The position numbers and the translations under genes are program-made. Source: Gammaproteobacteria bacterium (GTDB lineage Bacteria > Pseudomonadota > Gammaproteobacteria > GCA-001735895). Taken from it: 64,000 nucleotides of DNA. Positions 8,771 through 47,009 of this stretch are shown piece after piece; position 1 is the first letter of the stretch, and each line of letters begins with the position of its first letter. The stretch spans positions 86,394 through 150,393 of the forward strand of contig JABHSO010000212.1 in NCBI GenBank assembly GCA_018669845.1. The letters run 5' to 3'. Under the pieces are notes generated by a model. It was not told the DNA's origin, ran no database searches, and saw only the letters and a list, made by a program, of their open reading frames with translations.

Positions 8771-8792
8771 GTCTGTTACTCCAACTTAAAAA

Positions 8793-10492: not shown

Positions 10493-11863
10493 TTAGTTTT
10501 CTTTCTCACTGTCATCTTCCAGTTTTCTATACAAACTGGATACACCTATACCTAATTGATTAGCTGCCAGCTTTCGGTCACCCCTGGCTTCTTTGATGGC
10601 TTTTTTAATAACAGCAATTTCATAACTGTGTAATTGCTGTTTTAGCGTAGCCATCGAGCCCGACGGGGTTGGAAAGGTAGGAATATCCAGAGCATTAATG
10701 TTTTGTGGTAAATCTGAAGCTTCTATACAGTCACTTTCGGCCAGGATAAGAGCACGTGCTATAGCATTCTGTAATTCTCTGACATTGCCCGGCCATTTAT
10801 AACTGAGTAGACTTTGCATGGCGGCTGGATGAATGTCGATGGCTGAATTCAAACCCATTTTTACACTTTCCCGGTTAATAAAATGTTTAATCAATTCGGG
10901 GATATCTTCCTTGCGTTCAGCAAGAGGGTGTAAAGGGATGTGAAATACATTCAATCTGAAATACAGGTCTTCTCTAAAGGTTCCCTGCTTAACCATGTCA
11001 GCCAGATCCTGGTTAGTCGCTGCGACAATGCGCACATTAATCTTACGCGACTGCTCACTGCCCAGCGCCCGTACAGTCTGATCTTCAATGACGTGTAAAA
11101 GTTTAACCTGCAGGTTAAGCGGTAACTCGCCGATTTCATCGAGAAAAATAGTGCCCTGGTCGGCTTCTGCAAATAATCCCCGTTTAGCTTTATTGGCTCC
11201 GGTAAAAGCCCCTTTTGTATGCCCGAAAAACTCACTTTCCAGTAAGTTCTCTGGAATGGCACCACAGTTAACCGGGATGAAGGATTGTTCTGAGCGCTGA
11301 CTATTCTGATGAATCGACCTGGAAATAATGCCTTTACCCGCACCGCTGGGTCCAGTGATCAACACCGTACTATCGGTAGGTGCTACTTTCATTATAAGAC
11401 GTTCAACCTCTTTCATGGCAGGCGATATCATCTGGCAGATAGAATCATCCTGTCCTCGCACAAGTTCGCGCAGTACTTCGTTTTCTGAACGTAAATGGAT
11501 AACATCGGCCAGGTGTTCGAGCCGGTTAATAACATCTTCATTACGTAATGGTTTTAACATGTAGTCATAGGCACCTGCACGCATGGCGTCGATAGCGGTA
11601 TTTACAGAAGCAAAAGCTGTCATCATCAAAAAAATGGTTTCTATGCCCTGCTTGCGTGCTTTTTCGACCACTTCAATGCCTGAGAAATCGGGCATGCGAA
11701 TGTCGCACAGAGCGACATCGATATCGCCTTTACTGAGTATACTGAGAGCTTCCAGGCCATTGGCTGCCATTAGCACTGAATGCCCGGCTTTACTGGCTGT
11801 GTTTGACAGGATCTGCCTGATGGCAGGTTCATCATCAATAATCAATACTTGTAGTGATCGCAT
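10493..11863 (-). CDS. NtrC-family sigma54-dependent response regulator
   Basis: Receiver domain (VALCDIRMPD), AAA+ with GAFTGA (FFGHTKGAFTGANKAKRG), C-terminal Fis-type HTH (RKLAANQLGIGVSSLYRKL). Confidence 0.95.
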   Translation of the reverse strand: MRSLQVLIIDDEPAIRQILSNTASKAGHSVLMAANGLEALSILSKGDIDVALCDIRMPDFSGIEVVEKARKQGIETIFLMMTAFASVNTAIDAMRAGAYDYMLKPLRNEDVINRLEHLADVIHLRSENEVLRELVRGQDDSICQMISPAMKEVERLIMKVAPTDSTVLITGPSGAGKGIISRSIHQNSQRSEQSFIPVNCGAIPENLLESEFFGHTKGAFTGANKAKRGLFAEADQGTIFLDEIGELPLNLQVKLLHVIEDQTVRALGSEQSRKINVRIVAATNQDLADMVKQGTFREDLYFRLNVFHIPLHPLAERKEDIPELIKHFINRESVKMGLNSAIDIHPAAMQSLLSYKWPGNVRELQNAIARALILAESDCIEASDLPQNINALDIPTFPTPSGSMATLKQQLHSYEIAVIKKAIKEARGDRKLAANQLGIGVSSLYRKLEDDSEKEN

Positions 11864-11937
11864 ATTTTTAGATATTTAATAATCAAGTTATTAATTAATC
11901 GGAACATAATAATATCAACTTTCATCTTAAGACGTAT

Positions 11938-12726
11938 TTACAAGGGGAGGTGGATGGCTATCTTCAATCCTCCTCCCGCTAAAGATTCAGCATGCAGGTT
12001 ACCATGATATGAATGCACTATAGCCCAGCATATAGCCAGCCCCATTCCGCTACCCTGGTCAACTTTTTTGGTGGTATAAAAGGGTTCAAAAATATGCGGT
12101 AAATCAGCTTCGTTTATGCCGCAACCGTTATCCTTAATTATTAAAGAAATTGCGTTTTTTTCACTACATTTTGTTTCTATCAGAATGACAGGATGTGTGG
12201 TGTCTACAACAGCATCCAGTGCATTTTCCAGAATATGGGTTATTAACTGATTAAACTGGGTGAATGAAAAAAATAAAGCGGGTATTTCATGATCCTGCTT
12301 AAATGTAATTGAAATACCAGACCAGCGTTTATCGTAGCGATATAGCTTAACGGTATTACTGATTAGCTGATTGATATTGATCCATTCATTTTGATCCGGG
12401 TTGGGTGTGTCCATTATTGATAAATCGCGGGTGAGTTTGGCCAGACTTTCAGCATAATTTTGTAATTGTAAGAAGTTATTTTTACTATCTTTACTCAACT
12501 GGTTTTCATCGTCATCAGCGATCTCCTGTATCAGGCCGGTTATGCAGGTTATCGGGTTGCCGACTTCGTGCGCGATACCACCTGCCAGAGAATTAATGGC
12601 GACCATTTTCTCTTTGAATGAATACCTTCTGCGTTCAATCTCCAGAATCTTTTCTCTTTGTGCCTGTGCTCGAGACATGAAATAGATGTTTTCGGTTAAT
12701 TGTATGTGTTCATTCTGATGTTTCAT
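11938..12726 (-). CDS. Soluble sensor histidine kinase, NtrB-like
   Basis: H-box NSLAGGIAHEVGNPITCITGL; HATPase DNGCGINEADLPHIFEPFYTTKKVDQGSGMGL; no TM helix. Confidence 0.9.
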   Translation of the reverse strand: MKHQNEHIQLTENIYFMSRAQAQREKILEIERRRYSFKEKMVAINSLAGGIAHEVGNPITCITGLIQEIADDDENQLSKDSKNNFLQLQNYAESLAKLTRDLSIMDTPNPDQNEWININQLISNTVKLYRYDKRWSGISITFKQDHEIPALFFSFTQFNQLITHILENALDAVVDTTHPVILIETKCSEKNAISLIIKDNGCGINEADLPHIFEPFYTTKKVDQGSGMGLAICWAIVHSYHGNLHAESLAGGGLKIAIHLPL

Positions 12727-12809
12727 CTAAAGAGCCTCCAGGCGATAAGCTTTTAAAATATCGGTACTTTGTTTTTTTCGTTGTAAATATTCACTGATAC
12801 TCATTTCAG

Positions 12810-13400
12810 TCACCCCGATTTTTTATGTTTGTTTAAGTTTTCCATTTTCATCAGAGTTCCCTGCTCTATACTATTAAAAAAGTTTACATCCCAATGCTGT
12901 TCGCCAGTTATACGGTTGATGATTAAACCTTCGGCTGAAACGATAAATGTTACAGGCAATGCTTTTATGCTGAGCAGTTTTTCAGACATCTGAGAATCTT
13001 TATCCTGAAAATTGCTGAATTTAATTTTATGTTGCAATAGAAATTCTTTAATTAAATTAATGTCATCATCAACAGAAATTCCGATCACTGTATATTGTTG
13101 TTGATCCAGAGTTGTACTTAATTCCTGTAAACCAGGCATTTCATCGCGGCAAGGTTTACACCAGGTTGCCCAGAAATTGATTAACAGGGTTTTGTTCTGT
13201 ATGTCGATACTGGAGTTTTGAATCGTTTTCATCTGTGTTAACAGTGTCAAAGGGAAAACGTCACCTGCTGCCGGAGAACTTTGTGATTGATTGCTGCAAC
13301 TGGATAAAACGGCCGTCAATAAACTGAAACATAGCAGTACTGACAGTTGTTGAAAATTAGTCGAAACTATTATTCGGCGATGGTTATCAAAATCACTCAT
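12810..13400 (-). CDS. TlpA/ResA-like thioredoxin-fold lipoprotein
   Basis: Lipobox-like LSSCSN, NFWATWCKPCRDEMP motif. Confidence 0.85.
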   Translation of the reverse strand: MSDFDNHRRIIVSTNFQQLSVLLCFSLLTAVLSSCSNQSQSSPAAGDVFPLTLLTQMKTIQNSSIDIQNKTLLINFWATWCKPCRDEMPGLQELSTTLDQQQYTVIGISVDDDINLIKEFLLQHKIKFSNFQDKDSQMSEKLLSIKALPVTFIVSAEGLIINRITGEQHWDVNFFNSIEQGTLMKMENLNKHKKSG

Positions 13401-15604: not shown

Positions 15605-15646
15605 AGTTCGCCCCTTATCGTAGAAAGTAGATCTGTAAAATTGGTA

Positions 15647-15662
15647 AGCACTTTTGATGCCA
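15647..15662 (-). promoter_or_regulatory. Sigma54 (-24/-12) promoter
   Basis: Minus strand TGGCATCAAAAGTGCT, GG-N10-GC; upstream of the triheme cytochrome pair. Confidence 0.8.
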
Positions 15663-15722
15663 GCTGATTTGCTGTCTGAATGAAAAGTGAGCGACTTCTT
15701 GTCAGACCTCATTGCTAAACTC

Positions 15723-15776: not shown

Positions 15777-16877
15777 ATGTCCTGTATGCAAACCTTAATT
15801 TTTCGTTTGGCTATTTTGTTGAGCCTTGCCTTTTTATCTGGATGTGTAACAACATCACCGCTCGCCACAGAGATTGAAAAACCGGTGTTTCCTTCTGCCC
15901 CTGCTCCGGCTCGAATGGTTTTTGAACGGACTCTGCAAAGTAGTGCTGATGTAGAAATTGAAAACGAGGAATCTGTTTTTAAACGTTTTATAACCGGGCA
16001 ACGACGTACGGGTACAGGTTTGGGAAAGCCTTTTGCGGTGAGCGTACATCAGGGGCGAGTATTTGTCAGCGATACGCTGAAACGGATGGTTGTTGCGTTC
16101 GATATACCACAGGCAAAATTCTTCGAAATTGGAATCGAGCCTCCGGGAGAACTGGTCAAACCGATGGGGCTGGATGTGGATCAGGCAGGAAACCTATACG
16201 TCTGCGATGCCACCATGAAACATGTCGTGGTATTCAATCGGGATGGCCAATATCTGCGCACGATCGGCAATCCTGAATTGTTTAGTCGTCCGAGTGGACT
16301 GACGGTTGATGCAGCCGGTGAGCGTGTATTTGTGGTGGATACCGGTGGGGTCTACAGTGATAAACACCGGGTTCTGGTATTTGATGCGCGCAGTGGGGAA
16401 TTTCTACTTGCGATTTCACAACGCGGCGATCAGGACGGTGAATTGAATTTACCGCGTGATGCCACTATCGGTCCTGACGGATATTTATATGTCGTTGACG
16501 GGGGGAATTTCCGTGTACAGGTTTTTAAGCAGAATGGTGAGTTTGTCAGGGGATTTGGCGGCATAGGACGACGTGGCGGACAATTTTCCAGGCCTAAGGG
16601 CATAGGGGCCGATGCAGCAGGTAATATATATGTCGCCGATACCGCATTTGGGAACTTCCAGATATTTAATGCAAGCGGGCAACTGTTACTGGCTGTGGGG
16701 TCACGTGGAAATTCCCCCGGCCCAGCTAAATATATGTTACCGGCCGGGCTGGCGGTGGATGAAGATGGACGCGTTTATATGGTTGATCAGTTTTTTAAAA
16801 AAGTGGATGTCTTCAGGCCTGCAGGTCTGCAACCGGAGCAGGGGTATCTGGTACCCGCCAGTCCTAAAAATAAATGA
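15777..16877 (+). CDS. NHL-repeat (6-bladed propeller) lipoprotein
   Basis: Lipobox LSGCVT; NHL blades (GLDVDQAGNLYVCDATMKHVVVFNRDGQYLRTIG etc.). Confidence 0.85.
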   Translation: MSCMQTLIFRLAILLSLAFLSGCVTTSPLATEIEKPVFPSAPAPARMVFERTLQSSADVEIENEESVFKRFITGQRRTGTGLGKPFAVSVHQGRVFVSDTLKRMVVAFDIPQAKFFEIGIEPPGELVKPMGLDVDQAGNLYVCDATMKHVVVFNRDGQYLRTIGNPELFSRPSGLTVDAAGERVFVVDTGGVYSDKHRVLVFDARSGEFLLAISQRGDQDGELNLPRDATIGPDGYLYVVDGGNFRVQVFKQNGEFVRGFGGIGRRGGQFSRPKGIGADAAGNIYVADTAFGNFQIFNASGQLLLAVGSRGNSPGPAKYMLPAGLAVDEDGRVYMVDQFFKKVDVFRPAGLQPEQGYLVPASPKNK

Positions 16878-17002
16878 TTTTATTCCCATATTCGGGATTA
16901 ATTTTAATAAATTTCCCGAATGCTGGAAAAATAAACTTGAATAATTTAATCGTTAATTCAGTAAATCCGGTATTTGCAGGCTTTTAAAATTGTATATAGG
17001 AA

Positions 17003-17018
17003 TGGCCTGATAATTGCC
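17003..17018 (+). promoter_or_regulatory. Sigma54 (-24/-12) promoter
   Basis: TGGCCTGATAATTGCC, GG-N10-GC; lies inside the over-extended ORF, supporting a downstream start for the next gene. Confidence 0.7.
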
Positions 17019-17069
17019 TTGTCTATCGTAGTATTTTATTTTCGCATAAAAAATATGGGCATCAAAATC

Positions 17070-17699
17070 ATGGACATCAAAAAATTATTTTATACCTCCC
17101 TGCCTTATATATTCATACTCTTGTTAATGCTGACTATCAATGCCTGTAGCAACAATGACGGTCAGAGTAATCTTATACAATCTGACAATATCGGGATGCT
17201 TGCAAAAGTTGCAGTTGCGAAAAATCCACTGGCTAAAAATGGAACGCTAAAAAGTATAAAAAATGCGGGTGGTTATTCCTATCTGGAAGTTGATATCAAA
17301 GGTGAAACCTTCTGGCTGGCGACGGCTATCATTAACCTTAAGCCAGGAGAAGAAATAGCCTGGAAGGATTTTGCTGTGATGAAAAATTTCAACAGTAAAT
17401 CACTCAACAGGGTATTCGAGCAGATTTTGTTCGTGGATAGAGTTTTAGCGGTTTCCGCTTTGGGCCGTACGCAACATCAGGGCGTAGTTTTAAAAGCCAT
17501 GGATTCGGCTGGATACAGTTATATTCATGTTGAAGAAAAAGGAAAGAAAATTTGGCTGGCTGCGCCTTCTTCCAGCCTTCAAACTGGTCAAACCATACGC
17601 TGGGATAGTGGTGCCGCGATGCGTAATTTTTCCAGTAAAACCTTAAAACGTACTTTTGATGAAATATATTTTGTCAACAGTGTGAAATATAATTTATAG
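17070..17699 (+). CDS. Lipoprotein with two NrfJ-like repeats
   Basis: Lipobox LTINACS; internal duplication GGYSYLEVDIKGETFWLATA...AMKNF(N)SKSLNRVFEQILFVD / AGYSYIHVEEKGKKIWLAAP...AMRNFSSKTLKRTFDEIYFVN. Confidence 0.6.
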   Translation: MDIKKLFYTSLPYIFILLLMLTINACSNNDGQSNLIQSDNIGMLAKVAVAKNPLAKNGTLKSIKNAGGYSYLEVDIKGETFWLATAIINLKPGEEIAWKDFAVMKNFNSKSLNRVFEQILFVDRVLAVSALGRTQHQGVVLKAMDSAGYSYIHVEEKGKKIWLAAPSSSLQTGQTIRWDSGAAMRNFSSKTLKRTFDEIYFVNSVKYNL

Positions 17700-17790
17700 A
17701 GCCAGAGTCAGTGCATTAAATTGGTTTAAGCAATCAAACCTCTTCAAGTAGTTTTCATGCCAGCTACCTGCTTGTTGTTTGTTATCCATT

Positions 17791-17825
17791 CGGCGGTGAG
17801 CGCCCCCGCTCATCGCCGCTTTTTA
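17791..17825 (+). terminator. Rho-independent terminator
   Basis: GGCGGTGAGCG-cccc-CGCTCATCGCC followed by GCTTTTT. Confidence 0.8.
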
Positions 17826-18034
17826 ATAGTAAATTACCCGTCAAACACGCTTTTAAAAGTTTTTGAATAATCCTAAAAATGGGAATAAAATCCTAAATAA
17901 ATTCCCAGAGTTGAGACATATGTGTTTTGTTTGATGGTGAAAACCTCCCGCTAATTTTTATATATTTCTGTAAGTCGTTGTATATAAAAAGATTGCCTTT
18001 TATTTGTAGCAATTAAGTATTTTCAATTTTTGGT

Positions 18035-18050
18035 TGGCACAGTATCTGCT
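18035..18050 (+). promoter_or_regulatory. Sigma54 (-24/-12) promoter
   Basis: TGGCACAGTATCTGCT, GG-N10-GC; about 50 bp upstream of the 4-heme cytochrome gene. Confidence 0.85.
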
Positions 18051-18100
18051 CTATTGAAAGCTAAGCCAGCTCTTCAGCATTAAACTAGAGAGGAATATTC

Positions 18101-18898
18101 ATGAAAAAGCAGATGTTGAGGCTTAAAATTGGCAGACTTGCCATTTTGACGGTCTCTTTTTTCGGCGCGGGAAATGGCTATGCAGCCGTTGCCAATACGG
18201 CGCACAATTTGGGAACCACAGGACCTGGCCCGAATACCTATAGTGGAACCGCAGAAATCTGTGTCTTTTGTCATACACCTCATGGTGGTGATAATTCAGC
18301 ATCGGTACCTTTGTGGAATAAAACCCTGGCGGCTCCGGCTTCTTACACCACTTATGATTCATTAGGAACCACCAGCCTTGATGGCGCTACCGCACCAGTA
18401 GGGTCTGTCTCTATTGCCTGCCTGTCCTGCCATGATGGTACACAAGCCATGGATACGGTGTTAAATCAACCGGGTTCAGGGGCTGTAGTAGCCAACTATG
18501 GAGAAGGTGTCTGGACCGGTAATTCTATACCGCAGGGTATAGCGTTAATTGGTCAGGATCTGTCAAACGATCACCCGATCGGTATTCAGTATGGCGGTGG
18601 TGGTATAACCGAAGCTTCACCTTTGGCTACAACCAATGATACCGACTTCGTGGCACCGAACAATGCCACAATCAATGGTAATACTGTGTGGTGGGTCGAT
18701 ACCGAAGTAGCACCGAATGGTACCCGCCAAAAAACCGATATGCAGTTGTATACACGATCCGTTGCGGCCATCGATGCCGGTGCCAATCAACCATTTGTTG
18801 AATGTGCAAGCTGTCATGATCCGCATAGCGAGAATAATACATTTTTGCGGGTATCGAATGACGGTAGTGCCGTGTGTTTAGCATGTCATACCAAATAA
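18101..18898 (+). CDS. Tetraheme cytochrome c (doubled-CXXCH type)
   Basis: CVFCH, CLSCH, CASCH, CLACH; signal peptide. Confidence 0.85.
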   Translation: MKKQMLRLKIGRLAILTVSFFGAGNGYAAVANTAHNLGTTGPGPNTYSGTAEICVFCHTPHGGDNSASVPLWNKTLAAPASYTTYDSLGTTSLDGATAPVGSVSIACLSCHDGTQAMDTVLNQPGSGAVVANYGEGVWTGNSIPQGIALIGQDLSNDHPIGIQYGGGGITEASPLATTNDTDFVAPNNATINGNTVWWVDTEVAPNGTRQKTDMQLYTRSVAAIDAGANQPFVECASCHDPHSENNTFLRVSNDGSAVCLACHTK

Positions 18899-18977
18899 TT
18901 TTTAAACGCAGGTAACAGAAATAACCGATGGTGATTTTTACGGTCGGAATTTTTTAATTAACAGAATTTATTCAATT

Positions 18978-19997
18978 ATGTGGATAGTTAAACTGCAAAC
19001 AGAACTGAATTTTCATCGTTTCAACAAAGCAATTGTTTTGCTGCTGGTTTTGTATGCCCCATTCTTACAGGCCATGGAAAATTCTAATCCTCAACTTGCA
19101 GCGGATACACTATTCGCCAGCATTGATGGACAGACGATCAGTCAGGCTGAATTTACAGGTATATTCGAAGCTGCCGTAAGGCATAAATATTATCACGGTC
19201 GTGTCCCGCAGGAAGAGCTTGAAAAATTCCGCAAACAGGTAGCTGAGGATATCATTCTGCAAATTCTGCTACACAGGGAAGCTAAAAACCTGGGACTGCA
19301 ACCAGACCGCCAGAAAATCCGACAGGGGCTGGACGAATATGAGCATAAAGTGACAAACAATATCGACTGGAAGAGCCAGCAGGAAAAACTAAGACCCTTA
19401 TTATTAGAGAGGCTGGAACGACAGAATCTGATAGAAAAAATACGTGCCAGAGTGCAAAAAATTAACAACCCTGAAGCTGACGATGTAAAACAGTATTACC
19501 TGAAAAACCCACAGAAATTTACCGAACCCGGCAGGTTATGGTTATCGGTGATTTTATTAGAGGTACCTCCTGCGGCAGATAAAAAAATGTGGCAGCAGGC
19601 TAATGTAGCGGCACAACAATTTAAACAACGTATTGAAAGTGGTACTGATTTTGCCGAGCTCGCACAGCAGTTTTCGGCTCACCCGAGTGCTGTTAACGGC
19701 GGTGACCTGGGGTATCTGCATCAGGGTATGCTCGATGGGGATGCGCAAACAGCAGTGAACGCACTCAAAATTAATCAATTAACAGATCCGGTTTTAGTGC
19801 TGGGAGGGTTAACCCTTTTTCGTCTGAATGGAATTCAGGCTGAAAGACTCAAACCTTTTAGTGAAGTGGCGAAGCGTGCAGAAGCATTACTGCTCAGAGA
19901 ATTGAAAGATATAGCCTGGCAGTCTTATACAAAGACTCTGATCGATTCGGCCAAAATCACCCTGAATGAAAATTTGTATGCTTTCAATGATGACTAA
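18978..19997 (+). CDS. Parvulin-type peptidyl-prolyl isomerase
   Basis: SurA-like N-terminus and rotamase segment FAELAQQFSAHPSAVNGGDLGYLHQGML. Confidence 0.85.
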   Translation: MWIVKLQTELNFHRFNKAIVLLLVLYAPFLQAMENSNPQLAADTLFASIDGQTISQAEFTGIFEAAVRHKYYHGRVPQEELEKFRKQVAEDIILQILLHREAKNLGLQPDRQKIRQGLDEYEHKVTNNIDWKSQQEKLRPLLLERLERQNLIEKIRARVQKINNPEADDVKQYYLKNPQKFTEPGRLWLSVILLEVPPAADKKMWQQANVAAQQFKQRIESGTDFAELAQQFSAHPSAVNGGDLGYLHQGMLDGDAQTAVNALKINQLTDPVLVLGGLTLFRLNGIQAERLKPFSEVAKRAEALLLRELKDIAWQSYTKTLIDSAKITLNENLYAFNDD

Positions 19998-20002
19998 TTA
20001 TT

Positions 20003-21775
20003 GTGCATGTGTATTTAGCAAAAAAAAATTGCTCAAGCTGGATGTTAGCGATGCTTTTAATGATGACTAATTCACTTGAATTGAATGCCAGCCCGGTTCG
20101 AGTTTGGGGTGATATTAGCAGCGTTTACCGCTCTCGTGATTTTGACAGGGGTGAAAGTCAGGTAACAGAATGGCTGAATCTGGCCAGTATCAATGCCAGC
20201 AGTTATATCTGGCAGCCCTGGTTTGCGCTGATTAATGGTGGCTTGACCTATTCAGTGGATGATTTTAATGCGAGCGATCAGCCATCCGTGAAAGATAAAT
20301 TTATAACCGGTAATATTCAATTTGATCTATTTCCCGGAAGTCGGTTTCCATTTTCAGCGTATGTAAATCGTAGTCGTAATGAACTCGATGATGACTTATT
20401 TGCAAGAGATATCAGCAATACCGAGCTGGGGCTTACACAGCAGTATCGAAGTCTCTCCGGGCGCCATCATTACCGGACTACTTATAAACGTAATGTTCTG
20501 GATGATAGTAGCATCGGCAATTTTATCAGTGACAGTTTACAGCTATCCAGCAGTAACCAGTTCGAAAACCAGGTGTTACATGCGGAGGCACAATATGACC
20601 GTGTTAGTAGTGAAATCGCCGGGGATGAAGCCATTAGTTTAGCGCTTACCGGTAGACAATCCTATGATGGATTTGAATACATTAATATTGAGAACCTGGT
20701 TTCATCCTCAAGCATTCATAATGACTTTGACACTAGATCATCAGAAATACAGACCAACCAGTTCTCCAGCCTGATGTCCTGGTCACCAGCAGGCAGGGAT
20801 GACATGAATTTTACCGCAAGCTTACGCCTGCTGAAGTTACAGTTTAACAGTGAGTTTGACGATAACAGTTTCAGCGCTAATACGGCCACTCAACAGGAAA
20901 ATTATTCATTAAATATAAATCAGGGGCTTAACTACAGTATTTCTGATCATGTGTTAATCAGCGAATCAATCAATGGTTTATATACTCGCTCTCAAACTCA
21001 GGATTTTTTTACCGGTAACGAAACTGTCGGGATTAGTTATACCCCGGCTTCAATAGATACCATATTGGGATATTATCACTGGTCGTTTGTATCGAGCCTG
21101 AATAACCAGCATGGAGATGTTGAAACTGATCAGTCGTTAACAAACCAGTTTAGTCATTCGTTATCGGAAAACTTTGCATTGGCAGAAAATAGTTTACTGC
21201 AGGCTGATATCACCCAGTCATTCCTGGCCGACTATCGTTTTGAAAATGAGTCTGCTGAAACTTTAGATCACAGTTTATCTGTTTCCTGGACAGAGTCGTC
21301 TACACGCGCTAATTCAGTCGTCAGGTTCCTGTTTACTGACTCTAATACGCAGGGGGTTGAGGATAGAAGTTTTCAATTATTTAACTTGCAGCTTAGCGGT
21401 CAATATCGTTTTAACCGGTTTTCAAGTTTGAGTGCTAACCTGACTTTTCAACGAACTAATCAGCAGATAGATCAGCAGCATACAGTGCATCGTGTCAACA
21501 ATGGTCAGCTCGATTTTACACGCAAAAGATTGTTTCAGATACCACGCCTCAACTTTCGGTCAGAGCTTCAATTTAGTCAGCAGCAATCTGAAAGTGAGCG
21601 AATTATTTCAACATTTAGTAGTGATGAAACAGAGCACGATATTTCATGGGAAAATAATCTGGATTACATGATAGGCCGCTTTGAGTCACGACTGAGTCTG
21701 GATTTTATTAAAAATGATGGTCAATATGATCGTCTGATAAAAATTCAGTTCACGCGCTCTTTTGGAGACCTTTAA
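20003..21775 (+). CDS. Putative outer-membrane beta-barrel (porin component of a porin-cytochrome conduit)
   Basis: Signal-like N-terminus; alternating amphipathic strands throughout; ends in aromatic-containing strand IKIQFTRSFGDL; genomic context. Confidence 0.65.
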   Translation: MHVYLAKKNCSSWMLAMLLMMTNSLELNASPVRVWGDISSVYRSRDFDRGESQVTEWLNLASINASSYIWQPWFALINGGLTYSVDDFNASDQPSVKDKFITGNIQFDLFPGSRFPFSAYVNRSRNELDDDLFARDISNTELGLTQQYRSLSGRHHYRTTYKRNVLDDSSIGNFISDSLQLSSSNQFENQVLHAEAQYDRVSSEIAGDEAISLALTGRQSYDGFEYINIENLVSSSSIHNDFDTRSSEIQTNQFSSLMSWSPAGRDDMNFTASLRLLKLQFNSEFDDNSFSANTATQQENYSLNINQGLNYSISDHVLISESINGLYTRSQTQDFFTGNETVGISYTPASIDTILGYYHWSFVSSLNNQHGDVETDQSLTNQFSHSLSENFALAENSLLQADITQSFLADYRFENESAETLDHSLSVSWTESSTRANSVVRFLFTDSNTQGVEDRSFQLFNLQLSGQYRFNRFSSLSANLTFQRTNQQIDQQHTVHRVNNGQLDFTRKRLFQIPRLNFRSELQFSQQQSESERIISTFSSDETEHDISWENNLDYMIGRFESRLSLDFIKNDGQYDRLIKIQFTRSFGDL

Positions 21776-22204
21776 ATGATTCTGATGGAGTATATAACAG
21801 TGAGTATAAGATACAATCTACCCATATTTCTGCTGGTTTTTGCACTGCTTTATCCTGCCATGGCACAGGCTGAATACGGCGATGTTCTGATGAATAATTA
21901 TTCCGATGATGCCGGCATGCGGCCGGTTGTTTTTCCACACTGGTTTCATCGTATCCGCTTCAGGTGCAAGGTGTGTCATGCCGATCTCGGGTTTAAATTC
22001 GAAGCCGGGGGTAATGAAATTAATATGTTGAAAATTATTGATGGAGAATATTGTGGTGCCTGTCACAACGGGGAAGTGGCATGGTCAGTAGAAAGCTGTG
22101 ATATCTGTCATTCGGGTAAACCGGGTACGCCGACTCAGGTGCATCACAGTACCACATCAAAGCTGTTCACCCGCACCAACAATAAACAGAAAGGAGGCAA
22201 ATGA
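21776..22204 (+). CDS. Triheme c7-type cytochrome, type A
   Basis: CKVCH, CGACH, CDICH; HWFHRIRFRCKVCH signature. Confidence 0.85.
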   Translation: MILMEYITVSIRYNLPIFLLVFALLYPAMAQAEYGDVLMNNYSDDAGMRPVVFPHWFHRIRFRCKVCHADLGFKFEAGGNEINMLKIIDGEYCGACHNGEVAWSVESCDICHSGKPGTPTQVHHSTTSKLFTRTNNKQKGGK

Positions 22205-23175
22205 TGAAAGCATATCATTTAATTCTAACTATTTTATTTGTGTTGACAATCTCCAGTGCTTTTGCAGAAACTGAAATACGTTCTGGAAAAGATATCTATG
22301 ACATGGCCTGTGCGGGCTGCCATGCAACAGGTGTATTAGAGGCACCTAAACTGGGTTCAAAAACAGATTGGGACAAAAGGGAAAAACAGGGATTTGAAGT
22401 TTTAATGATACATGCTTTAAAAGGTTTTAAAAATATGCCAGCCAAAGGGGGCAATCCAACCATTAAAGACCAGGAAATTGAAAATGCAATCAAATATCAG
22501 TTAGCACAGTCAGGTTTTGATCAGTATAAAGAGAAATCCGGTTCAACAGAAAACAACAAACCAGCGCCTGCAAAAAAAACAGCCGATACCCGGCCGAAAA
22601 TAATTCCTGAAGCAATTCCTGAAACAAAGAACATAGCAAAAATAAAACAGCCAAAAAAGACCCGCACCCATAGCGTCAATCGTTTTAATCGATTAATGAA
22701 ACCCGCTGCCGAGTGGAACCTGTCGCCCGCAAAAGATGGTATACATGATCCGGAAAATGAAGGCACACTGCTGTTACAACCGCCAAAGCAGGCATTTGAA
22801 TCGTTAAGCAATGCAAAATCTGGTAACCGTGTGGACTGGGTTAAATCCCTGCAAAATAAGGAGATTTCTCCGCGATATGATCGATTAAGTGATGATAGCA
22901 AACCGGTAGTAATGGATTTAAATATTGTGCGTGAAGTTAAGGGGTCAATGCCTGATGTTGTTTATCCACATAAACAGCATACTGAATGGCTGGATTGTTC
23001 TAACTGTCACCCGGCGATTTTCATTCCACAAAAGGGGGCGAATCAAATTTCCATGGCGTCCATTCTGCTTGGACAGCAATGTGGTGTCTGCCATGGAAAA
23101 GTAGCGTTTCCAGTGTCAGAGTGTCGTAAGTGTCATTCACAAAAAAAGGCACTTAAAACCGGGAACGGGAAATAA
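22201..23175 (+). CDS. Tetraheme cytochrome: class I cytochrome c module fused to c7-type triheme module, type B
   Basis: CAGCH, then CSNCH, CGVCH, CRKCH; PHKQHTEWLDCSNCH. Confidence 0.85.
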   Translation: MMKAYHLILTILFVLTISSAFAETEIRSGKDIYDMACAGCHATGVLEAPKLGSKTDWDKREKQGFEVLMIHALKGFKNMPAKGGNPTIKDQEIENAIKYQLAQSGFDQYKEKSGSTENNKPAPAKKTADTRPKIIPEAIPETKNIAKIKQPKKTRTHSVNRFNRLMKPAAEWNLSPAKDGIHDPENEGTLLLQPPKQAFESLSNAKSGNRVDWVKSLQNKEISPRYDRLSDDSKPVVMDLNIVREVKGSMPDVVYPHKQHTEWLDCSNCHPAIFIPQKGANQISMASILLGQQCGVCHGKVAFPVSECRKCHSQKKALKTGNGK

Positions 23176-23190
23176 CAGGAGGGTAAGTTA

Positions 23191-24054
23191 ATGTGGATCA
23201 TTACGTTTTTTTTACACTTTACACTCGGTTTAGGTACGGCGTTTTCACAGCAGGAATTGCAGCTGGTCAATGACGGCGGAAAATCGATCAATAATAAACT
23301 CAATCAAAAAATAAAAATGGCTAATTTTATTCTTAATAATTCTTCATTACGCAAACGACTGAACACCAGCAATGACAGTGTTGCAAAAGAACTGGTGGAA
23401 CGGGCCAGGGATAATTTAAATAAAATTGAGACCTATATGGACAATAAACTATTCCTTGAAGCAGGAGCTATCATCGATTTTGTATTGAGGGACTTGTCTG
23501 CCAGTTCTCAATTACTCAATGTACCCAATCAGAAAAAGAAAAAATATACAAAAAATCTGGAAATTCTTGATTCTTTCGTGCTTCCAGAATGGGAAAATCT
23601 AAGCGATAGTGATTATGATTTTTTGCAGGAAAATTTAGCTAAAATCGATGAATTACGAAACGATGCGATCCTTAGTTCACAGTCTGAAGACTATGACAAA
23701 GCAATAAATTTACTGGATACAGCCTATTATTTAAAAACCACATTGATCAGCAATTTACAACATGAAAACACGGTTGTGTATGACCTGAAATTTGATTCTG
23801 CGCAAGATGAATATTCATACATGGTTAGCCGTACTCATCATTACCTGGACCTGGTGGACTTAACACTGTCTAAAAAAGAAGTTGGTTTGCAGACCCGGAA
23901 ACTGGCAGATAATTATATTTATCAGACCCTGGTAAATTTGGAGGTGGCAGAAAACCTTCAATCTGAAGGAAAACCATCAGAGGCAATTAGAGTGTTGGGT
24001 AAATCGATTAATCAACTTTCTTCGGTATTAAAGATGCTGGGGATAAAAATCTAA
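23191..24054 (+). CDS. Secreted helical protein of unknown function
   Basis: Signal peptide; helical composition; paralogous to next gene. Confidence 0.6.
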   Translation: MWIITFFLHFTLGLGTAFSQQELQLVNDGGKSINNKLNQKIKMANFILNNSSLRKRLNTSNDSVAKELVERARDNLNKIETYMDNKLFLEAGAIIDFVLRDLSASSQLLNVPNQKKKKYTKNLEILDSFVLPEWENLSDSDYDFLQENLAKIDELRNDAILSSQSEDYDKAINLLDTAYYLKTTLISNLQHENTVVYDLKFDSAQDEYSYMVSRTHHYLDLVDLTLSKKEVGLQTRKLADNYIYQTLVNLEVAENLQSEGKPSEAIRVLGKSINQLSSVLKMLGIKI

Positions 24055-24064
24055 AGAGACTGCT

Positions 24065-24943
24065 ATGTTTAAAAATATGATGACATTATTTTTACTGGTG
24101 CATGGTTTTAGTCTATTCAACCCTGTTTATGCCGAAACTGGACAGTTAGCAGTGGATAATAACGCAGTAGAAAATCGTATAGACAATATGTTTAAACTGT
24201 TAAATGAGTCTTCAGCTGCTAAGCAGGTTATTAATAGTACTCATAGCGAAGCCAATAAGAAACGCCAGGAAGCACTCGACCTCTACCAGCTTGCCAGGGA
24301 TAAATTCAAAATTGGATTGAATGAAGAATCTTCAAAGTTATTATCGCAATCGGCAAAACTGATGTTTGAAGCGATAAAACTATCAACTCCCACTTCCATG
24401 ACCGACGATAAAAATATTATTGATTATGAGAAAAGAAAAAAGTCAGTGATCGCTCTGAAAGAGGCTTTCATTCGAATTTCTGATGAAAATAAAGAAACTG
24501 AAACTAAACAAAAAGTCGGTGCACAACTGGACAGGCTGGTCAGTAAGGCCGATTCGTTGTTAAAAAAGGGTAACAGTCATCAGGCACGCATCGAAATTGA
24601 TAAAGCCTACCATTTATTAAAGGTTTCTATTGACTCGATTCGATCGGGCCAGACCTTGACGCGCTCATTGAATTTTGCAACTAAAGAGGAAGAATTCGAT
24701 TACGAAATCAATCGCAATGATACTCACAACTTGCTGGTCAGCCTGTTGGTTGAAGAACAGAAACAATCTGAAATTGTGAATAAAAATATTAACAACTTTA
24801 TCGATCAGGCAAATGAATTGCGTCAACAGGCAGAGCTTAATGCAAAATATAAATCGTATGAAAAAGCTATAGAATTACTCGAGCAGTCTACCAAACAACT
24901 GGTCAGGGCGATTCGAAGTGCCGGTATTTTCATCCCTGGATGA
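24065..24943 (+). CDS. Secreted helical protein of unknown function
   Basis: Signal peptide; shares pattern (IDKAYHLLK..LNFATKEEEFDYEINRNDTHNLL) with previous gene. Confidence 0.6.
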   Translation: MFKNMMTLFLLVHGFSLFNPVYAETGQLAVDNNAVENRIDNMFKLLNESSAAKQVINSTHSEANKKRQEALDLYQLARDKFKIGLNEESSKLLSQSAKLMFEAIKLSTPTSMTDDKNIIDYEKRKKSVIALKEAFIRISDENKETETKQKVGAQLDRLVSKADSLLKKGNSHQARIEIDKAYHLLKVSIDSIRSGQTLTRSLNFATKEEEFDYEINRNDTHNLLVSLLVEEQKQSEIVNKNINNFIDQANELRQQAELNAKYKSYEKAIELLEQSTKQLVRAIRSAGIFIPG

Positions 24944-24957
24944 TGTTGTGACGAACT

Positions 24958-25521
24958 ATGAAATTGACTAAATACCTAGCTGTATTGTTAATCCTGTTAC
25001 CATGCAATTTAGTGGCCGTGCAGCAGCACTGGAAGAGTCTGATTAATGACGGTGTGCATGATCCGACCAGTCCCGCGATTGGCATTTTACAGGAACCTTC
25101 ACAGGCATTTTCTTTACTGCCTGCAGATACGGCAGGCAATAAGGTTTCCTGGGTACGTGCATTACGCGAACAATATATCCAGCCACGCACTAATATTTTT
25201 CCTGAAACCAAAATCAACGTGCTCGACATGGATATTATCATGGATCGTACCGGTGAAATGCCGATGGTCCGGTTTCCGCATAAAGCGCATACAGAGTGGC
25301 TGGATTGTGAAAACTGTCATGATGATATATTTATCGAAATTGCTGATGCCAACCCAGTCAATATGTTTGCAATTTTAGCCGGTGAATATTGCGGTCGTTG
25401 TCATGGTGCGGTTGCTTTTCCTTTAACCGAATGTAACCGTTGTCACAGTGTCGATAGAAATACTTTCACCGGCCAGCCAGGTGCCCAGCCGGAAAAGGAT
25501 CTGACCGATATGTTAAATTGA
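24958..25521 (+). CDS. Triheme c7-type cytochrome, type B
   Basis: CENCH, CGRCH, CNRCH; FPHKAHTEWLDCENCH. Confidence 0.85.
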   Translation: MKLTKYLAVLLILLPCNLVAVQQHWKSLINDGVHDPTSPAIGILQEPSQAFSLLPADTAGNKVSWVRALREQYIQPRTNIFPETKINVLDMDIIMDRTGEMPMVRFPHKAHTEWLDCENCHDDIFIEIADANPVNMFAILAGEYCGRCHGAVAFPLTECNRCHSVDRNTFTGQPGAQPEKDLTDMLN

Positions 25522-25949
25522 CACAACATCCTGAAATGACACATGATGTTACTCAGTTAAGCAAAAAGAATACCCGGCACAGAAGTATTATTTTATTTTT
25601 TTGCACGCTCTCAGGACTGTCCTGTTTTAGCGTTTTAGCGGAGTATGCCGATGTTGTGTTAAATCGAAATGCCGAATTTAATGATATGCCTCCGGTGGTA
25701 TTTCCACACTGGTTTCATCGTATCCGGTTTCGCTGTAAAGTTTGTCATCATGAGTTGGGATTTAAAATGCGCGCGGGATCCAATGATATAACCATGGGTG
25801 ATATCATCGATGGAAAATATTGTGGCATGTGTCATAACGGCGAGATAGCCTGGTCGGTGGATAATTGTGAGCTTTGTCATTCGGGTAAACCCGGCCTGAA
25901 AACGGGTATGCAGGGTAGTAATGAGACATCCGGGCCGGGCAGATGGTGA
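25518..25949 (+). CDS. Triheme c7-type cytochrome, type A
   Basis: CKVCH, CGMCH, CELCH; HWFHRIRFRCKVCH. Confidence 0.85.
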   Translation: MTQHPEMTHDVTQLSKKNTRHRSIILFFCTLSGLSCFSVLAEYADVVLNRNAEFNDMPPVVFPHWFHRIRFRCKVCHHELGFKMRAGSNDITMGDIIDGKYCGMCHNGEIAWSVDNCELCHSGKPGLKTGMQGSNETSGPGRW

Positions 25950-25977
25950 TAAGATTTTTTACATTCAGGAAAATCTA

Positions 25978-27084
25978 ATGGTTTGCAGGCGAAACTTATT
26001 ACTAACATTTTTGTTCAGCCTGATATTGCTGGGAGGATGTAGTGCGCCGTCGAGTCGATATTCATTTCAAATGCCTCAATCCTATGAGCCCGCTGCAGTT
26101 GAAAATTCCACAGCATCCCGCCAGCTGGTGTGGCCGTCTCCACCCGAAGTTGCGCGTTATCGTTATGTAGGGGATATTCGAGGCGAGTCGAACCGTTTAC
26201 CGGGTAAAATCCCGGACAGTTTACTGGCACGGTTTTTTTCTGCCATAGTGGGCGTTGAACGGCAATTAGATTCTGTTATTGATTTACTACGCCCGCAACA
26301 GGTGATGGTAGATGAATCCGAGCGAATTTATGTGGCGGATGCAGGAAGGCAGTCCGTCTTCGTATTTGATCAGCAAAACAATGAATTCTTAATCTGGAAT
26401 GAAAGCAACCTGAATATTCCTTTCCTCAGTCCGATTGGTATTGTCATTGCCGACAACAAGGTGCTGGTCACCGATTCTGAACAGAGTGTAGTGTACCGAC
26501 TGAGTTTCACTGGAGAGTTGATCGATAGTATCGGTCGCAACGTGCTTAAACGCCCAACCGGTATTAGCTACGATGTGGTTACTAAACGCATTTTTATTGC
26601 GGACACCGGTGATGATAATATCAAGGTTTTTGATCTACAGGGAACGCTGATCGATGTGTATGGCAATAAAGGGACTCGAGTGGGGGAATTTAACAGGCCG
26701 ACTTTTCTAAGTTATAAAAATGGATTGCTGTATGTCGCTGACTCGATGAATGCCAGGGTTCAGGTGTTGAATGACCAGGGGGACAGTGTCAATAGCATAG
26801 GTGAGCGAGGGTTGTTTATTGGTAATCTCTCACGTCCAAAAGGTTTAGCCACGGATTCGGATGGCAATATTTATGTTGCCGAAAGTTATTATGATCATGT
26901 GTTGATTTATAATGCCAGTGGTGAATTATTAATGTCGCTGGGCGGGCCGGGCAATCAGGCCGGAAAGTTTTCTCAGCCTACGGGATTATGGGTAGACGAT
27001 CAAGACCGGTTATATGTTTCTGATATGTTGAATAGCCGAGTTTCGGTTTTTCAGTATCTGGGTGGCCAGGAACATGAAAAGTAA
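25978..27084 (+). CDS. NHL-repeat lipoprotein
   Basis: Lipobox LLGGCSA; NHL blades (GLATDSDGNIYVAESYYDHVLIYNASGELLMSLG). Confidence 0.85.
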   Translation: MVCRRNLLLTFLFSLILLGGCSAPSSRYSFQMPQSYEPAAVENSTASRQLVWPSPPEVARYRYVGDIRGESNRLPGKIPDSLLARFFSAIVGVERQLDSVIDLLRPQQVMVDESERIYVADAGRQSVFVFDQQNNEFLIWNESNLNIPFLSPIGIVIADNKVLVTDSEQSVVYRLSFTGELIDSIGRNVLKRPTGISYDVVTKRIFIADTGDDNIKVFDLQGTLIDVYGNKGTRVGEFNRPTFLSYKNGLLYVADSMNARVQVLNDQGDSVNSIGERGLFIGNLSRPKGLATDSDGNIYVAESYYDHVLIYNASGELLMSLGGPGNQAGKFSQPTGLWVDDQDRLYVSDMLNSRVSVFQYLGGQEHEK

Positions 27085-29467
27085 CATGAAACTACAGATG
27101 CGAATTTTATTTACGCTGCTGATGATTTTTTATCACCCGCTAAACGTGGCAGAGAGAATATCCGATATAGCGAATACCCGTCATAATTTTTCCACATCGG
27201 GCACGGGTACGGTAAAAGCCAGCGAGGAAAGCCAGATTTGTGTCTTCTGCCATACACCTCACCATTCAGAGTCGATACCAAATGCACCTTTGTGGAATCG
27301 CAAGGCGTCCGGTGCAACTTATACGCCGTATACTTCTAATTCCATTGATGCTAACGATATCGCGGCTACGCCGGGTGGTAGCTCGAAACTCTGCCTGTCC
27401 TGTCACGATGGAACCATCGCCATCGGTTCGGTGAATGTGCTGAATGCCCAGTCTAATGTGAATATCAATTTAACGGGTACCGGAGCCGGCGGAGTGATGC
27501 CTTCCGGTGCCGGTGATACGACCGGTTTTACGCGAAAACTGGGCACCGACCTGGGTAATGATCATCCCATATCGTTCACTTATAACAGTGTACTGGCGAA
27601 TACCGATGGTGAATTACGCAACCCGGATATCGAGGCGCATATTGGTAACCGGGTAGCCGGTAATACTCCTTTGGTTCCGCTGCAAGATAATCAGCTGCAA
27701 TGTACCAGCTGTCATGACCCACATATCCGCGACAGTGATATAGGCAATAATATTAAATTCCTACGTCTGAACCGGTTTCAGCAAGGCATTCCTGCGGGCG
27801 GTAATTTTAGTGCGGCAAATGATATTGTGTGTCTGGCCTGTCACGATAAGCTGGGTCAGGCTTGGTCCGGTTCGGCACATGCCGACCCGCTAACGGCAAA
27901 TGAAACTTACACCACCGCAGCTGCCAATCAACGAGAATTTGCGCTCAACCTGCCAGTGTGGAAAGCATCCTGTTTAAACTGTCATGATACGCACACCGTG
28001 CAGGGTTCAAGACGATTGCTCAGAGAGGGTACCGATAGCCTGTCGACACCCAAGACCGGCGGCAATGCAGCGCTGGAAGAAGCCTGTTATACCTGTCATT
28101 CGGCAACCGGTGGTGTGTTGAACGGGCAGGGTGGAGGATTATTCGAAGTACCCGATATCAAAACAGATTTTACTACCGGCCTGACGCATATGCCGATTAC
28201 CACTGTTGATCAATCTGGCATTGACGAAACGCATGATGTGGTGGATGCAGACCTGGTAGAAAATAAAACCAAGTTTAATTTGAGTAATCGCCACGTGGAA
28301 TGCACCGATTGTCATAATCCGCACCGGGTAACTAAAAACAGGTTATTTAATAATACTTCATCAACAGCGGCGGGGACTCATTCCCATGTCTCTGGACATA
28401 CCAATATTGCATCGGGTGTATTGCGCGGCTCCTGGGGAGTAGAGCCGGTATATGGTTCGAATAGATTCGACCCCACTAACTTTCCAGTCAGTTACATCGT
28501 CAAACGCGGTGATGGTGGTGATGGCGCCAGTACTCAGCTAAGCAGCACGCATATTACGCGTGAATATCAAATCTGTCTGAAATGTCATTCCGATTATGCG
28601 TATGGCAGCAATCCTCCTAACCTGGGGGATACCGGAGGCAATACTTCCGCAGGTACTAATGATGTCAGTGAATACACCAATCAGGCCATCGAATTTCAGG
28701 CTCCGCTGAGCCATAAGGGTGAAGTGACCACACTCGATTCCGGTGCATCTTCATCCTATTCAACTAATAACCACCGCTCCTGGCATCCCGTCATCGATAA
28801 TACCGGACGCACGCTGGCCATTCGTAATGCCAACTCGGAAAACTGGTTATCGCCATTTAATGGTGCCGCCAATGTAGGCAATCAAACGATGTATTGTTCA
28901 GATTGTCACGGTTCCAACACCGGCTCTGGCACCTCTGCACCCTCCGGTGGAGAAAACGGCAATGCCTGGGGACCGCATGGCTCGAGTAATAATTTTATTC
29001 TGAAAGGAGGTTGGAGTCAGAATACCGGAACGGGAAATTCGAATGACCTTTGTTTTAAATGCCATGACTTTAATCTGTATGCCACAAGAGGAGGAGGGCG
29101 CAGCGGTTTTGGCGGCTCCAAGGATGAAAATCTACATTCTTTTCATGCCGATAAGATCGGTCACTTAAATTGTAGCTGGTGTCATGTCTCGGTACCGCAT
29201 GGCTGGAAAAATAAAGCCTTCCTGGTGAACCTGAATGACGTGGGACTCGAGGCCGGGTCAGCGCCGGGCACGCAGGTCAGGAACAACACCACGGCCGGTT
29301 ATACCAACGGGCCTTATTATAACAATGCATTTCTCAAGATAAGAAGTTTTGCCACCAGCGGTAACTGGGAAGAAACTAATTGCGGGTCGGCAGGTACTCC
29401 GGGTAATGGTGAAATCGGGCGTGACTGGATGAGGGATAGTAGTGAAAATTGTGCCAACCCACCCTGA
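27074..29467 (+). CDS. Undecaheme (11 CXXCH) cytochrome c
   Basis: CXXCH counted in translation: CVFCH, CLSCH, CTSCH, CLACH, CLNCH, CYTCH, CTDCH, CLKCH, CSDCH, CFKCH, CSWCH. Confidence 0.9.
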   Translation: MKSNMKLQMRILFTLLMIFYHPLNVAERISDIANTRHNFSTSGTGTVKASEESQICVFCHTPHHSESIPNAPLWNRKASGATYTPYTSNSIDANDIAATPGGSSKLCLSCHDGTIAIGSVNVLNAQSNVNINLTGTGAGGVMPSGAGDTTGFTRKLGTDLGNDHPISFTYNSVLANTDGELRNPDIEAHIGNRVAGNTPLVPLQDNQLQCTSCHDPHIRDSDIGNNIKFLRLNRFQQGIPAGGNFSAANDIVCLACHDKLGQAWSGSAHADPLTANETYTTAAANQREFALNLPVWKASCLNCHDTHTVQGSRRLLREGTDSLSTPKTGGNAALEEACYTCHSATGGVLNGQGGGLFEVPDIKTDFTTGLTHMPITTVDQSGIDETHDVVDADLVENKTKFNLSNRHVECTDCHNPHRVTKNRLFNNTSSTAAGTHSHVSGHTNIASGVLRGSWGVEPVYGSNRFDPTNFPVSYIVKRGDGGDGASTQLSSTHITREYQICLKCHSDYAYGSNPPNLGDTGGNTSAGTNDVSEYTNQAIEFQAPLSHKGEVTTLDSGASSSYSTNNHRSWHPVIDNTGRTLAIRNANSENWLSPFNGAANVGNQTMYCSDCHGSNTGSGTSAPSGGENGNAWGPHGSSNNFILKGGWSQNTGTGNSNDLCFKCHDFNLYATRGGGRSGFGGSKDENLHSFHADKIGHLNCSWCHVSVPHGWKNKAFLVNLNDVGLEAGSAPGTQVRNNTTAGYTNGPYYNNAFLKIRSFATSGNWEETNCGSAGTPGNGEIGRDWMRDSSENCANPP

Positions 29468-30452
29468 TCAGGCTCAGCCAGTTGGTATGACTATGCTGCT
29501 GGCCTCGAGTCGCAGCACGCTGGTGTTGCTGGTTTACCTTGCACTGTCGATAATTGTTTTTTATCAACTGCCTGTTGAAGGTAGATACTGGTTATTGATT
29601 CCGCCGGTCGTGTTATTAATGATCAATTTTATTGCGGCTGTTGCGGTGCGCGGAGTGATGACCAGTAACCTGCCATTAATGCTGTTTCATTTTGCTTTAA
29701 TCATACTGGTGGTTTTGTCAATGCTGGGGCAGATGAGCTATCTGAAGGCCACCCTCGAGCTGGCCACGAATGAAGAGTTTGCGGGGCAGTTGGAGAATGT
29801 GCGTAAAGGGGCCTGGCATGACTATGGCCTGAACGATGTGCGTTTTACCAACCTGGGGTTTGAGATAAATTACCATAAGGGCGTGAAACGCAATAATACC
29901 CTCAACAGGATTGCATTGAGCGATGCTGATGGAACTCTAAGTCAGGTTGAGATAGGGGATCATGTGCCGCTGGTGATTGGACATTATCGTTTCTATACTT
30001 CGCATAACAAAGGTTATGCGCCGGTCTTTGCATGGAAAGCAACACAGGCAAAACAGTCTGTTAGCGGCAGCATCCATTTGCCGGCTTATCCGACCAATGA
30101 ATACAGGCAGGCACTGGAATGGCAGATTCCGGGTAGCCAGCTGAAAATCTGGACCCAGTTAAAGATTGAACAAGATGTGTTACCACTGGATCGGGATTTC
30201 CAGTTTACCTTGCCGCAACAACATCACCTGGTTATTCGTTATAACGATTCACGATATGAGTTAAAGGCCGGTGATGAACTCGAACTTGATCAGGGCATTT
30301 TAACCTATCAGGGTTTAACCAGCTGGATGGGTTATAAAGTGGATTATGACTGGACACGCCCCTGGTTACTGGCTACCAGTCTGGTGGCGCTGTTTAACCT
30401 GTTTCTGCATTTTCTGCTGAAATTTAGAAAAGCTGAAAATGCTTTAACATGA
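29442..30452 (+). CDS. ResB-like cytochrome c biogenesis protein
   Basis: Membrane protein with N-terminal TMs, large extracytoplasmic region and C-terminal TM (WTRPWLLATSLVALFNLFLHFLLKF), as in ResB; complements CcsA-like gene. Confidence 0.65.
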   Translation: MKIVPTHPDQAQPVGMTMLLASSRSTLVLLVYLALSIIVFYQLPVEGRYWLLIPPVVLLMINFIAAVAVRGVMTSNLPLMLFHFALIILVVLSMLGQMSYLKATLELATNEEFAGQLENVRKGAWHDYGLNDVRFTNLGFEINYHKGVKRNNTLNRIALSDADGTLSQVEIGDHVPLVIGHYRFYTSHNKGYAPVFAWKATQAKQSVSGSIHLPAYPTNEYRQALEWQIPGSQLKIWTQLKIEQDVLPLDRDFQFTLPQQHHLVIRYNDSRYELKAGDELELDQGILTYQGLTSWMGYKVDYDWTRPWLLATSLVALFNLFLHFLLKFRKAENALT

Positions 30453-30718
30453 GAGAAGTTTGAGACCGATTAATCATGGTTATGGAAATAGTATTTTTTT
30501 ATTATGTAGCATGGGTTGGATAACTGGTTAATTCGCAAAGATAATAATGGCTGTTGGAGTATGTGAAGAGCCTGTAGTTGTTAACCGGGCAAAAAGTAAG
30601 GCCGGCATTAACTATACCGGTATTATCATCTCATTTACCAGGCGTAGTTAACGTGATTATCTACGTTAAAAGGTTAGCTGTTTTATCCATCAAACAAAAA
30701 CCAGAGAGGGTATTTTTC

Positions 30719-39185: not shown

Positions 39186-39198
39186 TGTGAGTATTTAT

Positions 39199-41292: not shown

Positions 41293-41296
41293 CTGC

Positions 41297-42614: not shown

Positions 42615-42618
42615 CGTA

Positions 42619-43002: not shown

Positions 43003-43018
43003 GATTTTTCCAGGTTTA

Positions 43019-43459: not shown

Positions 43460-43487
43460 CGTATGACTGGTCAGACCTGAAAGGCTG

Positions 43488-46863: not shown

Positions 46864-47009
46864 TGTAATACCTGATAAACCGCTAATAGCTCTTTAAATT
46901 TAAGTAAAAAAACCAATAAACCGGTATAAATTCGCTCTAATTTCAATTCATGCAGATCACTCGGTGATTCTTACAAATATACTTGATATCGATTTTTCAA
47001 CATCTGATT

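Follow-up and report, generated by a model that had tools for sequence, protein, structure and literature searches.

In the filaments formed by OmcE and OmcS, a histidine from the next subunit ligates one heme, and exposure is limited to the hemes at either end of the filament (PMC12307469; PMC9473688). The export of cytochrome wires, their anchoring and their connection to the cell have been called unresolved in a review (PMC12307469). In the description of the osc (omcS-companion) operon of Geobacter sulfurreducens, OscH is assigned to folding, OscE, OscF and OscG to secretion and OscD to morphology (PMC13194489). Described components also include GSU1996, a 12-heme crescent made of four triheme domains (PMC10138318), and the MtrCAB and OetABI systems, in which a large outer-membrane barrel is combined with periplasmic and extracellular multiheme cytochromes; OetABI clusters also adjoin putative filament cytochromes (PMC10553843). 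We analysed a 64-kb stretch of DNA (the window), part of a 4.54-Mb gammaproteobacterial genome assembly. Its plus strand carries a close-packed run of genes encoding an OmcE-like tetraheme cytochrome, a peptidyl-prolyl isomerase (PPIase), an outer-membrane β-barrel, the array A-B-X-X'-B'-A' of small cytochromes (A, B, B', A') and paralogous secreted proteins (X, X'), NHL propeller lipoproteins and an 11-heme cytochrome. Positions are those of the window unless a locus label is given; loci and genomes are labelled L### and G###. An earlier note on this DNA had described the locus as a porin-cytochrome cluster, a label that overlooks the OmcE filament-subunit homologue encoded at 18101. The best reading of the locus is an OmcE-type assembly and export operon comparable to osc, not simply two porin-cytochrome conduits.

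The tetraheme cytochrome, a putative nanowire subunit (18101..18898, +), matched the OmcE filament subunit (PDB 7TFS) with an E value of 3e-26 over two stretches, residues 8-176 and 228-265, and a second solved multiheme cytochrome, 9yuq, with an E value of 6e-25. It contains four CXXCH motifs and exactly eight histidines. The four motifs and four further histidines are kept in 96-100% of 28 OmcE-like proteins, and the same positions are found in all of 30 N-terminal domains of the 11-heme protein and in all three proteins of a second cluster described below. In 26 of 26 complete OmcE orthologues the chain ends two residues past heme 4, as in the alignment to 7TFS. Judged by its sequence, the protein belongs to the OmcE filament family, with every heme-ligand position kept. 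It shares with OmcE of G. sulfurreducens the homologous subunit, the heme and histidine pattern and the C-terminus just past heme 4; it differs in coming from another phylum, in its longer chain and in having a homologous 11-heme companion.

That companion (27074..29467, +) also matched 7TFS (E = 2.7e-21). Its residues ~26-259 form a complete OmcE-like tetraheme domain, and a seven-heme C-terminal extension begins exactly at the point where the wire subunit ends. All 27 orthologues of the 11-heme protein examined contain 11 CXXCH motifs, and an extra invariant histidine, H269, lies just after heme 4. The earlier note had aligned only the N-termini of 18101 and 27074; these do align, and the alignment in fact spans the entire 4-heme protein.

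The genes around 18101 are conserved as a unit. A SurA/parvulin-type periplasmic PPIase (18978..19997, +) was recognized by its Rotamase domain (E = 4.7e-15) and by SurA chains matching residues 43-306. The following gene (20003..21775, +) encodes an outer-membrane β-barrel, for which AlphaFold2 gave a model with a pLDDT of 89 and 28 long strands. Of the PDB matches listed, MtrB (6r2q_B) reached the top TM-score, 0.46, and no sequence match to solved porins was detected; MtrB itself has 26 strands. The lipoprotein NHL1 (15777..16877, +; lipobox LSGC as read from the sequence; Pfam NHL, E = 4.5e-25) opens the block in many loci, though not all, and NHL2 (25978..27084, +; lipobox LGGC; E = 2.9e-30) stands between the array and the 11-heme gene. 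The last conserved gene of the run (29442..30452, +) encodes a ResB-like System II cytochrome c maturation protein (Pfam ResB, E = 9.4e-8), its position likewise conserved. Within the run, the barrel gene abuts A, the A/B and B'/A' genes overlap by four bases each, the remaining gaps between PPIase and B' measure 5-15 bases, and the gene ends of NHL2/11-heme and 11-heme/ResB overlap. Because the gaps are so small or the genes overlap, the region 18101-30452 resembles a single operon.

The four small cytochromes of the array belong to one family. A (21776..22204, +), B (22201..23175, +), B' (24958..25521, +) and A' (25518..25949, +; TTG start) scored 65, 67, 61 and 71 bits, respectively, with the nanowire_3heme model TIGR04257, whose curated cut-off is 40 bits. 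When run against the PDB, A, B and A' matched domains of GSU1996 (3ov0; E = 4e-35 for A). All four are homologous to the triheme domains of GSU1996, here encoded by four separate genes versus one four-domain chain. B, called a triheme cytochrome in the earlier note, proved to be a tetraheme protein in which a class-I, c5/c555-like heme domain is joined to the c7 triheme domain. The class-I domain was found in B of the window and of beta- and gammaproteobacterial loci; B' shares the N-terminal segment of the B family and is a c7 triheme cytochrome without the class-I domain. X (23191..24054, +) is a secreted protein of no known family, predicted to be helical by homology to X'. X' (24065..24943, +) is predicted to be an all-helical hairpin repeat (AlphaFold2, pLDDT 86.6). 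The model of X' contains helices only and had no PDB match at E<=0.001; the fold search gave nothing but weak, uninformative hits on designed helical repeats, catenins and vinculin.

The genes of the array lie where the earlier note had placed them, all on the plus strand, and the pairs A/A', B/B' and X/X' that it had proposed are true paralogues by BLASTP, profile-profile comparison and trees with sampled relatives. In BLASTP, A and A' share 56% identity over 112 aa (E = 9e-49), B and B' 46% over 147 aa (E = 1e-48), NHL1 and NHL2 30% (E = 5e-43), and 18101 aligns with 27074 at E = 2e-28. As single sequences X and X' are weakly similar (25%, E = 6e-6); the profile-profile comparison was unequivocal, with 100% probability and an E value of 1.8e-41 over 265 columns. 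The similarity is not confined to heme motifs, a doubt that the earlier note had itself raised: in shuffles that kept each CXXCH and histidine in place, the scores of the pairs exceeded the null by 23 (A), 22 (B), 11 (X), 56 (NHL) and 20 (OmcE/11-heme) standard deviations; identities calculated without CXXCH and histidine were 62%, 42%, 28%, 35% and 40%, respectively. The flanking pairs, also listed in the earlier note, are paralogous and stand in direct order, NHL-cytochrome followed by NHL-cytochrome; only the inner six genes are mirrored.

A search of other genomes for the same gene order, as the earlier note had proposed, gave 28 loci after removal of duplicates (27 and the window), each with an uninterrupted A-B-(X)-X'-B'-A' on one strand, in Gammaproteobacteria, Rubrivivax and relatives, Rhodocyclales and Magnetococcales; Rubrivivax sp. 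A210 (L011) is one bearer of the intact array. The sequences sampled are from Pseudomonadota only, and the trees contain neither Geobacter nor other phyla, so that deeper relatives could alter the picture. The larger conserved block reads NHL1 - 4-heme - PPIase - barrel - A-B-X-X'-B'-A' - NHL2 - 11-heme - ResB; as many as 28 loci agree in this order of the PPIase, NHL, barrel and ResB genes. As noted earlier for the window, a cluster as a rule has a single barrel and a single PPIase, and all four triheme genes are present in every one of the 28 arrays. A scan with A' led to 12 loci from Rubrivivax, Aquincola, Rhodocyclales, Rhodospirillales, Magnetococcales and Gammaproteobacteria; an A' search of plasmids found no homologue. 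In an even draw of Pseudomonadota, 23 of 399 genomes, the window's included, had TIGR04257 genes above the cut-off. Among the other 22, 20 carry an intact array, one (G189) an array apparently cut by contig ends and one (G356) a split array, in which OmcE-PPIase-barrel-A-B-X' and B'-A'-NHL2-11-heme-ResB lie ~39 kb apart on the same contig. The second block of G356, from B' onward, has no barrel of its own within the 19.5 kb read.

The X genes vary more in number. Six of the 28 arrays have a single X-type gene, as does the split array of G356; five of the six come from a single family, to which named Magnetococcales belong, and the sixth is from Rhodocyclales. The lone copies all group with X' in the tree; X' is therefore the copy retained when only one X-type gene exists. 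At L037:7719-10560 (-), three X-type genes stand in the middle of the array, so that X copy number drifts. Two further loci types were observed alongside. A solitary B-like triheme gene of ~350 aa, a fifth TIGR04257 member, is found elsewhere in many array-bearing genomes (L048:4144-5199, L051:4735-5808, L027:18422-19501). A Rhodospirillales locus (L008:1-10312) has X, NHL1, two class-I triheme cytochromes and a B'-A' pair; within the 20 kb examined it lacks both an OmcE-like gene and an 11-heme gene.

A second, shorter cluster is present in the genome of the window (C78, L019) as well as in two of its genus mates (L046, L047). Its order is NHL1 - 4-heme - B - A - barrel - NHL2 - 11-heme, with NHL1 seen where the contig extends far enough; the L047 contig stops short of the 11-heme gene. 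The second cluster at L019:311-6865 encodes a 679-aa barrel candidate that was missed by the barrel profile of the window. A and A' together were separated from the second-cluster A (A2) with 100/100 support, and A formed a clade at 100/99; B and B' together were separated from other B types at 81/97, with a B clade at 100/100; X formed a clade at 100/98, separate from X'. The earlier proposal that the members of each pair are mutual closest kin was thus borne out for these genes among the sampled relatives. Rooted on the very distant A2, A' came out as paraphyletic, and a topology holding A with A2 was not rejected (p-AU 0.25). The outer pairs behaved differently: NHL1 of the long cluster joins NHL1 of the short cluster (93/91), and OmcE joins the short-cluster 4-heme protein while the two 11-heme types group together (99/99). 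Because each groups with its second-cluster counterpart, the NHL and OmcE/11-heme pairs predate the A/B duplication, and since the outer pairs are older, the block is not the product of one duplication of all its genes. The mirror probably arose through duplication of the A-B pair, of which the second cluster has one copy, and through tandem copying of X in the middle.

Taken together, the locus is best read no longer as a doubled porin-cytochrome conduit but as a cluster for assembling an OmcE-type wire in which the small cytochromes are doubled. We consider it reasonably likely that the operon makes, matures, exports and electrically connects an extracellular cytochrome filament of the OmcE type. 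Heme attachment would be performed by CcsA/ResB. The SurA-like PPIase may hold or fold the OmcE chain and keep it competent, and the 28-stranded barrel would provide its outer-membrane passage or anchor. The NHL lipoproteins could shape the wire or keep it tethered, in line with what has been proposed for OscD. As single GSU1996-type domains, A, B, B' and A' would carry electrons between the periplasm and the wire base, with the c5-like domain of B and the adjoining class-I cytochromes possibly linking the trihemes to a higher-potential pool. Each of the two A-B pairs probably has its own client, the clients being related, or its own stage. A/B would then belong to the OmcE wire and B'/A' to the 11-heme protein, which fits the split of the G356 array between X' and B'. 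Inward electron flow is a real possibility, suggested by the class-I cytochromes, the c5-like domain and the RuBisCO and cbb3 oxidase genes of the window's genome; NapC/CymA-family quinol dehydrogenases are also present in this genome, so that electrons may flow either way. More tentatively, the 11-heme protein might be a built-in wire-end adaptor that docks on one end of an OmcE filament, stops or starts polymerisation there and gives a defined, electrically connected terminus; in these bacteria, which have cbb3 oxidase and, in the window's genome, RuBisCO, the wire would perhaps work inward, for electron uptake into a class-I cytochrome pool. If so, this protein could mark the wire end.

The resemblance to osc lies in a wire cytochrome accompanied by companions proposed for folding, secretion and morphology (Shen et al. 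2025, as cited in PMC13194489 and PMC12307469). An osc-type gene set, namely isomerase, propellers, barrel and wire-family cytochrome, is present here and conserved together. OscH is a prolyl-isomerase chaperone, and OscD is a β-propeller. The locus differs from osc in having a wire of the OmcE type, not the OmcS type, and in its doubled triheme and helical genes.

Several points weigh against a wire assembly operon. The likeness to osc is drawn from the kinds of gene and their descriptions. The filament is deduced from genes, and polymerisation cannot be read from a sequence. The assignment of a client to each A-B pair relies on one genome, G356, and the B'-A' pair of L008 is found apart from any OmcE-like gene in the 20 kb examined. 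The cluster contains no MtrA-like or other long periplasmic cytochrome that could span the barrel.

The mirrored order of the six inner genes had been taken in the earlier note as a signal. The order is real; its weight is less than supposed, because a second triad on the same strand can take six orders and one of these mirrors a given first triad, a probability of ~1/6. By itself the mirror is weak evidence and says little about function. The striking part is its conservation: that the order is maintained across distant proteobacterial lineages is what speaks against the mirror being a historical accident, kept by shared descent or block transfer and devoid of mechanistic meaning. Such an accident, which is compatible with a wire assembly operon, nevertheless has about an even chance of being the explanation. 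The B'-A' order is that of the single-copy cluster, leaving only the inverted A-B to be explained, and X copy number ranges from 1 to 3. Conservation across these lineages indicates selection for the block or its joint inheritance; it does not by that fact give the mirror a function.

A trans-outer-membrane porin-cytochrome conduit, with the 4-heme and 11-heme proteins acting as non-polymerising surface or secreted reductases or oxidases, is an unlikely alternative to the wire. The large barrel has its highest listed TM-score to MtrB, and multihemes and triheme relays surround it. In contrast to MtrCAB, the cluster has no MtrA-like decaheme plug; the small cytochromes encoded next to the barrel have 3-4 hemes each. 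The 4-heme protein, moreover, is a member of the OmcE filament family with the histidine count and C-terminus of wire subunits. To our knowledge, MtrCAB-type conduits are not defined by having a dedicated PPIase or NHL genes.

We regard as still less probable the earlier proposal of two conduits in parallel, in which an A-B-X set would belong to each and one barrel and one PPIase would be shared. It gains from the separate coupling of A/B and of B'/A' by four-base overlaps, and from G356, where the halves are separated and the second half has no barrel of its own in the 19.5 kb read. It is hard to see how a single barrel could make two conduits, except as two copies with different loads, and two conduits are not required: the second cluster manages with one B-A pair and one barrel alongside both the 4-heme and the 11-heme cytochrome. 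Equally doubtful is a split dodecaheme, in which A, B, B' and A' would line up as four GSU1996-like triheme units of a symmetric 12-heme relay across the periplasm, its order of assembly echoed by the gene order; the matches to single domains of the 12-heme crescent and the four triheme genes in each of 28 arrays would suit it, but the contacts that it needs between the proteins are hypothetical, the array is broken in G356 and one pair is enough in the second cluster.

With a wire assembly operon as the preferred reading, the cluster would amount to a short and conserved inventory of the parts of an OmcE-type wire in Pseudomonadota, and its single, double and split versions to a natural experiment.

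Other genes lie in and around the run. N17 (16974..17699, +), between NHL1 and the OmcE-like gene, encodes a secreted small-domain protein with a weak GW-domain match and no other; it is restricted to close relatives and a few other loci. Conserved neighbours, recognized by profile matches and neighbourhood comparison, include two divergent class-I triheme cytochromes (13579-14631 and 14591-15712, -). An NtrC-type sigma-54 response regulator, a histidine kinase and a TlpA-like thioredoxin (10493..13400, -) and a CcsA/CcsB-type System II cytochrome c assembly protein (4227..5024, +) are also conserved neighbours. Two candidates for membership in the system were rejected. A very large multicopper oxidase (49452-55286, +), followed by a YVTN propeller protein, scored 2430 bits to the Mn(II)-oxidising MnxG model, whose cut-off is 3100 bits; among 40 near relatives it occurs only in the window's genome and in G003, there on another contig, and the other array-bearing genomes of the phylum sample have no MnxG-like genes. 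Type II secretion genes for GspD, GspL-like, GspK, GspF and GspE, with a PpiC/SurA-type isomerase at the end (37056-47975, -), adjoin the wire cluster in the window; in the other stretches read, no such genes neighbour the array. Paired propeller proteins (7520-9929, -) form a further conserved duplicate pair that accompanies the NtrC-type regulator close to the array in several of the genomes with an array, and a cytochrome P460 family protein is encoded directly 3' of the ResB-like gene (30578-31240, +).

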